Shown here piece by piece: positions 2,204 to 22,661 of a DNA stretch of 43,065 nt (position 1 is the stretch's first letter; every line of letters starts with the position of its first letter). Under the pieces are notes generated by a model that worked only from the letters and a program-made list of their open reading frames with translations, searched no databases and had not been told where the DNA came from. A program made the translations under genes and the position numbers. This stretch comes from an uncultured Aquimarina sp. (lineage in GTDB: Bacteria; Bacteroidota; Bacteroidia; Flavobacteriales; Flavobacteriaceae), in contig CALFUO010000199.1 in NCBI GenBank assembly GCA_937929895.1, positions 1-43,065 on the forward strand, in the 5' to 3' direction.

Positions 2204-3016
2204 TTACTGAATTCTAGCTAAAGTATCTGTAATCTCTTTCTGATTTAAAGGATTAATACGTTTTAACACAAAGTTTCCAAAAGCATCGAAAAAACCTTTT
2301 CCAGATAATGCACCTGCATTGATCTTAAATTGTCCATTTGCCAATTTTGAGGCTGCGCCTAGTTTACCCCCTTCACTAAAGATATCGAAACCGGATAAAG
2401 ACTTTCTAAAATCGTAACGCTTTCCTAAAAACTCAAATGCATAATTGACATTGGTTATATTCTTTATCCTTGACTCTTCTCCTAACCGCGCACTTTCAGC
2501 AGCTTCAATAGCCTCTAATCTTTTTTTAGCTTCTGCAATAATCGCTGCTTTAGATAAACCGCCTTCTTTTGCTTGTACTTTTGTTTCTGCTGCAGATGCT
2601 ATGTATTCGTGACTCTCAATATATGGATCTTCAAAAACTTTGCGAAAAGCTTCGTAATACGACTTCTGAAAATCTTTTTCTCTACTCGCACCTTCAAGAG
2701 TAGTATGTACCGTTCTACCGTAACAATCTATTAAGTCGAAACTGATATAAGTAGTTAAGAAGCCTCTTTTATTCACCGCTACTTTTAATGCCTTACAAGG
2801 ATCAAAACCTTCTGGAGGTAAATCTCCCTCTAACATAGTTTCAAAATCAAACTTCTTGAATGTAGAAGCTACAAGGTTATTCAAATTATACTGTCCTGCT
2901 TCTTTTTGCATCTTAAACTGCTTAGGTACGACGACATATTTATATGCAGATAATTTTTGTGCTTGTGTTCCTAAAAAAGCAAAAGCACAAATTATTAGTA
3001 ATAGTATTTTCTTCAT
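2204..3016 (-). CDS. Secreted hypothetical protein
   Basis: Signal peptide MKKILLLIICAFAFLGTQAQ; 270 aa complete ORF. Confidence 0.75.
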   Translation of the reverse strand: MKKILLLIICAFAFLGTQAQKLSAYKYVVVPKQFKMQKEAGQYNLNNLVASTFKKFDFETMLEGDLPPEGFDPCKALKVAVNKRGFLTTYISFDLIDCYGRTVHTTLEGASREKDFQKSYYEAFRKVFEDPYIESHEYIASAAETKVQAKEGGLSKAAIIAEAKKRLEAIEAAESARLGEESRIKNITNVNYAFEFLGKRYDFRKSLSGFDIFSEGGKLGAASKLANGQFKINAGALSGKGFFDAFGNFVLKRINPLNQKEITDTLARIQ

Positions 3017-3182
3017 AATATTTTATCTCCCAATTACGGGTCAAATTCTCCGAGGCTATCCTCGTTTCATTAAAATTAAATAAATTCTTATATACAACGA
3101 AAATGCAGACAGAACTAAGTCAAAGCTATAAAGCAAATTCTAAATTGAATCTCATTTCGACTTCACTCGATATTCGAAATCA

Positions 3183-4484
3183 TTATTTTAGGTGTAATCT
3201 AACAAAATATTGATACATCTGGTCCCAAAACTTATATTTAGCACTACTCTTATCAAATAAATCATTAGTTAAGTGTATAACTACTTGACCATTCACATTT
3301 TTTACTGTACTTATTAATTTAGACGTAACTTCTTGTGCCTTCGTTGCAGATTTAAAAGATTCGAATTGATTTTCAGATAAACAAAATGGTATTATCCTTA
3401 GAGGTGTTTGTATTTCGTATTCTAAATCATAAAAGAAAAAAGGAAGACTTGTTCCTGCTCTAAAACCAGCATGATTTAAGTACCCCATAGAATAATCACT
3501 GCCTACCTCTTGCTCTATAAGATTACGATATGTTATGGGTAAGCTTAATTTAGCGTATTGGCAAAAACTTCGATTTATTTCTCTATGCGCAATGCTTTCA
3601 AACCTTTTTCGTTCCGTTTTCTGAATAGATTCGTTTTCTAATGCATCTACCGAAAAACGAATCCCAATAGTACAGTAATCGGCTATAGATTTTATAAGAC
3701 GCTGATACGTTTGACTTTGGTAAGTGGTACTTTTTTCGTGTGACGAATAGTTACCCAAACCAAAGAAAAAAGAAATATCTGCACCCGTTCTACGCGCTGT
3801 ATTTATTAAGTAATTGTATACCTGAAAGGGGTCTCTTTCTAGTTTTAGAAGTACTTTTGTTCTTTGTAATATTCTTTTTAATTGAAATTTTTGAAGATCC
3901 CCTAAATATCCTTCTACACTTCTAAACCATCCCTTTTTCCGAAAAGCATAGGCTTCATTTATCTCACAAAATAATTTTACAGTAGTTACCCGATCTACGA
4001 AAAGCAGATCAGGAAATTTGTCTATTAATACTTTTTTCAATTCAGAACACCATAAATCAATTACAGGTAATTGCAAAAACCCATCTTTAAATGCTAAACT
4101 TTCTGTAGCAGGAAAACCATAAGCATCTTTCGGATGAGGAACATATTCTTCGTAACGGCTCAATAAATAAAAACTTGCAGAAAAGACATCAAATGATAAT
4201 GCTGATTTTTCGTTCGGAACCTCAAAAAAATAAGGCATATTTTCTTCGAATGTCACTCTAATGTCTATATCTTCTCTAATACCCCTATCCGATAATAGGC
4301 CATAGGCTTGAAAAAACAACTCGTGCCCTAAAGGTTGTGATCCATAAGAACATTTTGGACCTACATGGGCAACAAACTGAGCTATCTTGTCTGTAAAAAC
4401 TACTTCGATACCTAAAATTCGGTCGAATAGTTGTTTGAATATATATCGAACTCTAGGAGTAACTATAGTATAGACCAGTAACAT
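3183..4484 (-). CDS. DUF7033 / polysaccharide deacetylase-like protein
   Basis: ORF track runs to 4511; the internal Met at 4484 (MLLVYTIVTPRVRYIFKQLF) is likelier and lies just after the radC stop; 'YSMGYLNHAGFRAGTSLPFFFYDLEYE' resembles the C-terminal part of this family. Confidence 0.75.
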   Translation of the reverse strand: MLLVYTIVTPRVRYIFKQLFDRILGIEVVFTDKIAQFVAHVGPKCSYGSQPLGHELFFQAYGLLSDRGIREDIDIRVTFEENMPYFFEVPNEKSALSFDVFSASFYLLSRYEEYVPHPKDAYGFPATESLAFKDGFLQLPVIDLWCSELKKVLIDKFPDLLFVDRVTTVKLFCEINEAYAFRKKGWFRSVEGYLGDLQKFQLKRILQRTKVLLKLERDPFQVYNYLINTARRTGADISFFFGLGNYSSHEKSTTYQSQTYQRLIKSIADYCTIGIRFSVDALENESIQKTERKRFESIAHREINRSFCQYAKLSLPITYRNLIEQEVGSDYSMGYLNHAGFRAGTSLPFFFYDLEYEIQTPLRIIPFCLSENQFESFKSATKAQEVTSKLISTVKNVNGQVVIHLTNDLFDKSSAKYKFWDQMYQYFVRLHLK

Positions 4485-5239: not shown

Positions 5240-5677
5240 ATGAAAACAATTTGGAATTCTGAAGCTAAAGATGAATTACTAAGTCGCGTTGAGCAATTAA
5301 CTGCAGATACGCCTCGTCAATGGGGCAAAATGGATACCGCACAGATGCTATGGCATTGCAAGTACCCTTTGACAGTAGCTATAAAAAATGAAGATAAGGG
5401 TAATGGAAAATGGTATATGAAACTTTTTAAAAAGTCTCTGTACAATGAAAAACCTTTTAAACAAGGCTTACCAACAGCCAAATTTTTAGTAGCTACGGAA
5501 TCTAAAAATTTTGAGGACGAAAAATCTCAACTCATTGATTTAATCCACAAAACTCACGATCTAAAAACTCGTGAATCTTGGAATCCACATCCGTTTTTCG
5601 GGAAATTTACGCACGAACAATGGGGACAATTAGAATACAAACATCTAGATCATCACTTTACTCAATTCGGAGTGTAA
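5240..5677 (+). CDS. DUF1569 domain protein
   Basis: 145 aa; 'PRQWGKMDTAQMLWHCKYPL...HPFFGKFTHEQWGQLEYKHLDHHFTQFG' typical of DUF1569. Confidence 0.85.
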   Translation: MKTIWNSEAKDELLSRVEQLTADTPRQWGKMDTAQMLWHCKYPLTVAIKNEDKGNGKWYMKLFKKSLYNEKPFKQGLPTAKFLVATESKNFEDEKSQLIDLIHKTHDLKTRESWNPHPFFGKFTHEQWGQLEYKHLDHHFTQFGV

Positions 5678-5839
5678 TTCAATTTAAACCATAAAATGCA
5701 ACATATATTAAGTTTACTTTTCTACTTTTTCTTCGTTTCAAAATGAAACCGTAGCTACTGCTATGCTTTAATTTTATGCCTTGAAAAAGCGAAAATTAAT
5801 TCTAAATATTTATGCCGCATTTTAGGGTTAAAATCGTAC
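5677..5839. mobile_element. MITE-like element, full copy A (~163 bp)
   Basis: Near-identical along its length to 21524..21686; left end aatttaaaccataaaatgc and right end gccgcattttagggttaaaatcgta are inverted repeats; begins at the stop codon of the upstream CDS. Confidence 0.75.
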
Positions 5840-5948
5840 AATCTTAATATAAAGTACACAGATTTATTTTTTCTTAAAATGAAGCCGTTTGCTTTTAATC
5901 TAGAGAAGAGAATAAAAAACTATCTCTTTCATTTAATCTTTATACTGA

Positions 5949-15734: not shown

Positions 15735-15850
15735 ATACGATCCTAAACCATAAAATGCAATATATATTAAGTTTATTTTTCTATTCTCTTTCAGTGAAAC
15801 GGTCTATATTCTAAAGTTTCGGATGCTAGTGACTCACTAACTAAAAATAA
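15735..15850. mobile_element. Degenerate/truncated copy of the MITE-like element
   Basis: atacgatcctaaaccataaaatgcaatatatattaagtttatttttcta closely matches the left ~50 bp of 21524..21686, then degenerates; right boundary approximate. Confidence 0.6.
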
Positions 15851-19051: not shown

Positions 19052-19071
19052 AAATTATTATGAAAAAATAG

Positions 19072-19275
19072 TAGTGTCCGATAAAGATTCAAGATCGCTT
19101 CGCTTCAAGAAACAGGAATCAAGATTGTGCCCATAACACACTGAAAACAGCTGATTTTTATTGTTTGTTTTTGAAACACAAACATGATTTCTTTGATATA
19201 ATACGATTTAAACCATCTTAAAGTCAGTGTTTAAAAGCATTGTCAGATTTTTATAAAATTTTTAGTCGGACACCA
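19072..19275. mobile_element. Candidate IS/MITE remnant with GTGTCCGA terminal inverted repeats
   Basis: TAGTGTCCGATAAAGATT (19072-19089) versus reverse complement of the right end TGGTGTCCGACTAAAAATT (19275 leftwards); ~200 bp interior without intact ORF. Confidence 0.5.
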
Positions 19276-19283
19276 ATGATAAA

Positions 19284-19318
19284 AAAAATGTCCAGAAATA
19301 ATATTTCTGGACATTTTT
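19284..19318. terminator. Bidirectional Rho-independent terminator
   Basis: Perfect 17-bp stem AAAAATGTCCAGAAATA / TATTTCTGGACATTTTT with 1-nt centre, between convergent genes. Confidence 0.85.
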
Positions 19319-21288: not shown

Positions 21289-21523
21289 AGTAATTTGTTT
21301 GTTTTGGAGTTCCAAATATAGCTGTCAACCTAATATTTAAAGGAGTTGTTCGACGAACTACACAGAAGATCATAAATGATCGACTCTCAAAAAATTGAAA
21401 CACAAATGAAATAAAAAATACTGTTTTGAAATGTTAAAATTTGAGTTAAGGCTCAATTTGAACGTCAAATATTAGTTATCAGATAGATAAAAATTGAAGA
21501 ACGAAACTGGTCTTTTTTAACTA

Positions 21524-21686
21524 ATACGATCTAAACCATAAAATGCAACATATATTAAGTTTACTTTTCTACTTTTTCTTCGTTTCAAAATGAAATCGTG
21601 GCTAGTGCTATGCTTTAATTTTACGCCTTGAAAAAGCGAAAATTAATTCTAAATATTTATGCCGCATTTTATGGTTTAAATCGTAT
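21524..21686. mobile_element. MITE-like element, full copy B (163 bp)
   Basis: TIRs atacgatctaaaccataaaatgc / gcattttatggtttaaatcgtat (23 bp, 1 mismatch); interior near-identical to copy A; no coding capacity. Confidence 0.8.
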
Positions 21687-21710
21687 AACTGATACATTGA
21701 AACTAACAAT

Positions 21711-22661
21711 TCAGAGATTTAAAAAGTCGATATTTCGTTTTAAACCTGAAAATTTAGTGCGTTTTACAGCAGACTTTTTAAACACTTTTCTAAAAACATC
21801 TTCTGTAATTTCTTGCCAATCTTGATAAGTCATTTCTAAAAGATCTGGATGCGGATTAAATAGAGGCTCATTATGAGATTTTGACATTCGATTCCAAGGA
21901 CATACATCCTGACAAACATCACAACCAAACATCCAATTATCAAATTTCCCCTGCATACTAGGCGGAAGGTTGTCTTTTAACTCAATTGTAAAATAGGAAA
22001 TACATTTACTTCCATCTACAACATAAGGTTCTACTATCGCCTGTGTAGGACAAGCATCCAAACAAGCAGTACAAGTTCCGCAATGATCTGTAGTTGCATG
22101 ATCGTATTCTAATTCGATATCTAAGATAAGTTCGGCTATAAAGAAAAAAGAACCAGCTCTTTTTTGTATTAAATTAGAGTTTTTCCCTGTCCATCCTAAA
22201 CCACTTTTAGCAGCCCACGCCTTATCCAAAACAGGTGCCGAATCTACAAATACACGTCCCGAAACCTCACCAATTTCTTGGTTTATAAATGCATGTAGTT
22301 CTCTTAGTTTCTTTTTGATGATATCGTGGTAATCCTGACCGTAAGCATATTTCGAAATCTTTGGTGCATTCGGATCGATTTGCTTTTCCTCTGTATAATA
22401 ATTTAAGAGTAATGATATTACACTTTTCGAACCTTCGACAAGCTTGGTAGGGTCTAAACGCTTATCAAAGTGATTTGCCATATAGCTCATTTGCCCATGA
22501 CAATTTTCCTGTAACCACTTTTCTAATCGAGGAGCTTCTTCTTCTAAAAATCCTGCCTTACTTATACCACATGACATAAAACCAATACGCTTGGCTTCTT
22601 CCTTAATCATTAAGGACCATTTAGAAGCATTGATCGTTTTATTCTGATGGGATTGTAGCAT
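21711..22661 (-). CDS. queG: Epoxyqueuosine reductase QueG
   Basis: Two 4Fe-4S motifs ([27 protein letters not shown]); '[30 protein letters not shown]'. Confidence 0.97.

Follow-up and report, generated by a model that had tools for sequence, protein, structure and literature searches.

The window analysed here, a 43,065-nucleotide stretch of the genome of an uncultured Aquimarina species, carries two near-identical intergenic copies of a 161-bp palindromic element that is almost certainly a genuine, mobile, non-autonomous transposon of the MITE type. Taken as a whole, the evidence is probably best explained by an element that inserts at TNA targets, is moved by an IS630-type transposase, and carries a hairpin that has been selected as a single strand.

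Element boundaries and copies in the window

The element runs from TACGAT to ATCGTA, and the 163-bp unit proposed in the sequence-only reading consists of this 161-bp unit plus one flanking base on each side. Copy A (positions 5678-5838) and copy B (21525-21685), both given in the plus orientation, lie where that reading had placed them and align without a gap across the whole unit. In both copies the minus strand folds better and would be the putative RNA strand. The bounding inverted repeats are also as described, measuring 22 bp; in copy B they read TACGATCTAAACCATAAAATGC on the left (21525-21546) and GCATTTTATGGTTTAAATCGTA on the right (21664-21685) of the plus strand. The hairpin apex of this copy occupies positions 21594-21615 of the same strand, for which the family consensus is AACCGTAGC-TAAG-GCTATGCTT.

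Both copies lie close to gene ends, as had been recognized from the sequence. Copy A directly adjoins the stop codon of a DUF1569 gene (5240-5677), and this TAA codon (5675-5677, plus strand) doubles as the left target duplication, with CAA as the right flank (5839-5841). Copy B is flanked by TAA on both sides (21522-21524 and 21686-21688) and 25 bp separate it from the 3' end of queG (21711-22661, minus strand). A third, truncated copy in the window consists of the first 48 bp of the element (15736-15783, plus strand). Another locus (L032, 454-569) holds a 116-bp version with an internal deletion and both ends intact.

Copy number and insertion at TNA targets

The proposal that the element is a MITE-like mobile repeat is borne out by several independent observations. 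It is short and non-coding, has terminal inverted repeats and a target-site duplication, and occurs in many copies: a BLAST search of the source genome, a fragmented assembly (2.68 Mb in 245 contigs, 81% complete), returned 25 copies, each 150 bp or longer and with 91-98% identity, plus fragments, a repetition far beyond chance. Empty sites are likewise available for comparison. Both window sites are syntenic in a sister genome (G036, ~77% nucleotide identity to the source genome), and the element is absent from both; at the site of copy B, matched blocks are ~145 bp apart in the sister genome and 301 bp apart in the window.

Two nested insertions define the target. At L021, a copy of the element lies within a repeat, R2, whose element-free copies (window 19069-19286, plus strand; L007; L035) read ACAAACA-TGA-TTTC where L021 reads ACAAACA-TAA-element-TAA-TTTC. 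At L005, a copy lies within a second repeat, R3, and GGTA-TAA-AAG has become GGTA-CAA-element-TAA-AAG. From these nested empty sites it follows that the terminal TA is part of the element and that the target duplication is TNA. Both repeat families are scattered in the source genome (R3 lies at 15780-15831 in the window), and at L031 (2218-2377) the R3 sequence, 160 bp long, is a relative of the element in its own right.

Flanking sequences throughout the family agree with a 3-bp duplication. The count for the source genome excludes flanks close to contig ends, since contigs are in places interrupted at the repeat and the start of L011 duplicates the end of the DUF1569 gene. Among the 19 remaining copies, ten have equal 3-bp flanks (4.9 expected, p 0.004); the flank pairs of the other nine disagree, at least one by point mutation and others perhaps through recombination or misassembly. 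Equal flanks occur in nine of nine related Aquimarina copies. Among 80 further copies from seven other genomes, identical flanks of exactly 3 bp were found in 68, compared with an average of 31 and a maximum of 47 when flanks were shuffled within genomes. Flank matches of 2 bp and 4 bp were found in none and one of these copies, respectively, and 151 of the 160 flank sides are TNA. Duplications of TA or of 5 bp are ruled out by the empty sites together with the 2-, 3- and 4-bp counts. Given that the flanks are unrelated and carry target duplications, the copies arose by insertion rather than by gene conversion, and of the two histories suggested from the sequence, spread is the one upheld.

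The assembly itself shows traces of the repeat. The first 117 bases of L011 duplicate the DUF1569 end of the window, and the first 129 bases of L012 likewise duplicate sequence from another contig. Such duplicated contig ends beside element copies indicate that the assembly broke or was misjoined at the repeat.

Distribution across Bacteroidota

The element is one family within a widespread group of ~160-bp non-autonomous transposons. Related families with ~72% identity are present in other genomes of the genus Aquimarina, and a covariance model built from 15 sequences detected relatives in 34 genera of the same taxonomic family, out of 151 sampled with one genome each. A second covariance model found relatives in 16 of 247 genomes of the class; in the class-wide sample they occur in 10 of 136 genera, other families included. 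Nearly all relatives are 158-161 bp long, and an alignment of 25 sequences, drawn from about two dozen genera, is almost gap-free. Copy numbers in seven genomes range from 10 to 106, with at least 106 in one of them. The ends of the wider family are mostly TACCATTT or TACCAATT. In another order, a Chitinophagales metagenome-assembled genome (CALBCY01) carries 161-bp palindromes with an identical 20-bp end on ~15 contigs, often at contig ends (L133-L136, L138-L141, L143-L148, L152 and L153). No match to the element was found in a plasmid collection or in a single tip-motif scan of IMG/VR.

Some covariance-model matches have the same hairpin tip between unrelated ends. Examples are L204 (1501-1665), L207 (1501-1665), L196 (1501-1664) and L210 (1501-1670), in which the tip lies within unrelated terminal repeats such as GAGACTGTTTTGAAATATGT, as though different transposons had taken up the hairpin core.

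A hairpin conserved on one strand

The suggestion that the whole unit could form one long hairpin is supported by folding predictions, in which it pairs from end to end as RNA on either strand (plus strand, -47.2 kcal/mol, z -7.7; minus strand, -53.0 kcal/mol, z -9.7). In the alignment of 25 sequences in plus orientation, double changes occur at 33 of 51 pairs, in 127 cells versus 39 after shuffling, and on the minus strand they occur at 41 of 51 pairs, noting that the genera used in these covariation and strand tests are not independent samples. When the pairing partner is slid by one base, no more than 50% of cells remain paired, compared with 85% in register. The element ends pair in 25 genera, and the tip is the best conserved part of the element across genera even though the ends differ. 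This pattern of covariation shows compensatory changes maintaining the hairpin along its entire length and, unexpectedly, the mismatches show that it is maintained as a single strand.

Compensatory changes specific to one strand are a criterion for structured RNA, and such changes are present here. Read in window orientation, the mismatches number 82 C-A cells and 15 G-T cells; they are distributed across ~30 pairs, and two tip pairs were not counted. Base composition alone predicts ~57% C-A, and the bias retains a p value of about 7e-9 after composition is taken into account. The C-A mismatches of the plus strand are G-U pairs on the minus strand, which has the lower folding energy in all 25 sequences (mean -44.5 vs -29.8). 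Consensus folding yields -36.9 kcal/mol for the minus strand and -3.2 kcal/mol for the plus strand. The minus strand also folds better in 20 of 20 copies from the source genome and in 80 of 80 copies from the seven other genomes. Two exceptions were encountered: a Chitinophagales copy, whose orientation is uncertain, folds better on the opposite strand in the orientation chosen, and copy L037 of the sister species shows little difference between strands (-50.7 vs -48.4).

Neither base composition alone nor strand-specific mutation accounts for this bias. Composition is responsible for roughly half of the energy gap between strands, but all 25 sequences show an excess over composition-matched shuffles in the same direction. 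Strand-specific mutation is rejected by recent changes among copies within one genome, which are symmetric (per base, G>A 0.36 and C>T 0.30; T>C 0.105 and A>G 0.106). Recent mutation that is symmetric between strands, together with a fold that favours one of them, argues for selection on an RNA or on single-stranded DNA. On these comparisons, long-term selection acting on a single strand seems very likely.

An ordinary MITE with a functionless hairpin would offer another account, in which the arms stay complementary only through copying or conversion of the two ends onto each other (palindrome repair) or through the needs of the transposase. Transposases do in general require terminal repeats, palindromes can be homogenized, and recent copies of this element are near-identical. 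However, arm-to-arm conversion re-establishes Watson-Crick pairing on the two strands alike and cannot produce the 82:15 preference for G-U pairs on one of them. Nor would this account anticipate an inner stem and tip that stay conserved between genera with different ends, or a minus strand that folds better in every one of the 80 copies. We therefore consider it unlikely.

The selected strand could instead be DNA, with one of the two DNA strands forming a hairpin when the element is replicated or transposed. In DNA, too, G-T is the more favourable mismatch, and the minus-strand bias is intrinsic to the element, with no orientation bias relative to genes. Against this, target duplications and terminal inverted repeats fit double-strand cut-and-paste by a DDE transposase rather than single-strand transposition, and random insertion places either strand as the lagging template. 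We regard selection on single-stranded DNA as improbable, and the strand under selection is probably RNA. An RNA read from the minus strand in window orientation would be a nearly fully paired hairpin of ~160 nucleotides with a conserved tip.

Position relative to host genes

It had also been proposed that the element acts at the 3' ends of genes, possibly in termination, and on this point the support is partial. In the source genome, the 3' ends of flanking genes face the element 27:7 (p 0.0008), with ten convergent sites, seven tandem sites and no divergent ones. Convergent gaps are likewise enriched in the seven other genomes (33/76 vs 7/45, p 0.002); simple ORF calls served as gene calls for these orientation counts. 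However, no T-run terminator was seen at the element, and in the tandem cases of the seven other genomes the structured strand is sense in 17 and antisense in 17. With sense and antisense equally frequent, a role as host-gene terminator fails to explain the strand-specific fold, and host-gene orientation is rejected as the cause of the strand bias.

One could still imagine that the host has adopted the element as a bidirectional terminator or mRNA stabilizer, selected at gene ends, and both the 27:7 ratio and the enrichment of convergent gaps would favour such a function. However, both orthologous sites in the sister species lack the element, and a bias towards 3' ends is also expected if insertions that harm promoters are lost, so we give this explanation little weight. 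Insertion near 3' ends probably reflects the survival of harmless insertions, and an insertion at a TNA target can also restore a TAA stop codon, of which copy A is an example. Given the random orientation between tandem neighbours, the putative RNA more likely serves the element itself, either as its own transcript or by protecting or insulating transcripts that cross it, than any one host gene.

The likely transposase

The sequence-only reading called for a search for an insertion sequence with matching ends. IS630-family elements of the genus, 1,115-1,122 bp long, have ends of the type TACNATTT, and three of five have equal 3-bp flanks (TAA/TAA, TTA/TTA and TTA/TTA); no autonomous element with the exact 22-bp ends of the window family was found. 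In the source genome, such an IS630 element lies on C163 (TACCATTTAATC...), and the ends of further elements of the genus read TACCATTTAGAC..., TACCATTTCTTT..., TACCAATTTACT... and TACGATTTACGG.... The first 8 bp are common to the IS630 ends and the element ends. Compared with shuffles, the match past these 8 bp is clear for one end of L158 and both ends of L161, marginal for some others, and not apparent for the rest.

The C163 copy is identified as IS630 by Pfam and NCBIfam (DDE_3) and is frameshifted, its catalytic half scoring just below the NCBIfam cut-off; no active autonomous source was found in the source genome. This two-frame copy (L031, ~2493-3612) has TAA flanks and lies within a fragment of the element, followed by a fragment of an ISAs1-type transposase gene. 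Among 14 element-bearing genomes, IS630 ends from the same genome are mostly decayed, absent or of another IS630 type, with one related end (L246).

Given the TACNATTT ends and the TNA flanks, the mover is likely an IS630-type transposase. An enzyme of this family (DDE_3, Tc1/mariner-like) would act in trans by cut-and-paste. That the element inserts between genes at TNA, duplicates those 3 bp and retains its full-length hairpin is shown by the sequences themselves. The IS5/IS1031-type (PIF/Harbinger-like) group is known for 3-bp TNA duplications, and IS5-family genes are present in the source genome, but an IS5-type mover is doubtful, since none of the DDE_Tnp_1 loci examined in the source genome and four relatives, whether IS5-type or other, has TACGATTTA ends of its own, and since related ends with TNA flanks were found on IS630 elements instead. 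Studied IS630 elements such as ISY100 insert at and duplicate TA (PMC2170065), the 2-bp duplication of IS630/Tc1-mariner elements, whereas the element described here duplicates exactly 3 bp.

An IS4-family transposase gene beside half an element in the sister genome was also rejected as parent; its insertion sequence is bounded by distinct ends (TCAATGTCATTAAGTTAA) and lies within the palindrome loop, which makes it a passenger. IS4-family insertion sequences with these ends occupy the tips of related palindromes at three places: L059 (~370-1804) and L071 (~1190-2623) in the sister genome, and L050 (~1586-1649) in genome G005. The insertion at L071 has an 8-bp duplication (ACTTAGGC), and that at L059 joins halves of two subfamilies. 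REP sequences are also targets of insertion sequences, including the IS4-family ISRm22 (PMC1525189), which the insertions into the hairpin tip parallel.

Relation to known systems and implications

MITEs are a known kind of element; what is new here is the combination of a TNA target with IS630-like ends, a fixed length and a strand-specific hairpin. Bacterial MITEs of the IS630/Tc1-mariner type include RUP and the Correia elements. They are likewise short, non-coding and intergenic, have terminal inverted repeats, and are mobilized in trans by the transposase of an element whose ends match theirs, but they duplicate TA, whereas the present element duplicates TNA, has a strand-specific hairpin along its full length, and is nearly fixed in length across genera. 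ISY100 and other IS630 elements (PMC2170065) are comparable through the genus IS630-type elements with related ends and TNA flanks, although the element here has no transposase gene. REP and BIME sequences (GTAG-tagged REPs, PMC3733652) are also many-copy intergenic palindromes, but REPs are 20-40 bp long and lack terminal repeats and target duplications; at 161 bp and with a TNA duplication, the element does not fit a REP/RAYT system. MITECca01 of Cardinium (PMC9769881) is an IS-derived MITE from the same phylum, but at ~240 bp, and derived from the IS982-family ISCca4, it is unlike this element.

Among RNA families, Rfam Flavo-1 (RF01705) is similar in being a covariation-supported hairpin in Flavobacteria. 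No Rfam family exceeded its gathering score on the element, either in the window or at eight loci tested. A Flavo-1 match at L188 (2338-2480, minus strand, 51 bits, with ~71 bases in a loop) lies 678 bp away from the element and was rejected as the element RNA. No description of the element family was found in the open-access literature, which was the scope of the search, subscription papers and ISfinder lying outside it.

The element also provides a marker for the genomes that carry it and a warning of misassembly in them. A bolder proposal, which we offer tentatively and consider possible rather than probable, is that these elements are transposable structured RNAs. In this proposal, a one-strand hairpin of ~160 nucleotides with a conserved tip would be needed for the spread or persistence of the element, its core would be packaged between different transposon ends, and IS630-type transposases using TNA targets would move it. 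MITEs are usually viewed as transposon debris defined by their ends. In this group the ends vary by lineage, whereas many genera retain the tip, the length and the strand-specific fold, as a functional RNA would. If true, a 3-bp TNA target would be added to what is known of IS630-like movers, and the Bacteroidota would have a class of mobile non-coding RNAs that is directly testable by RNA-seq.
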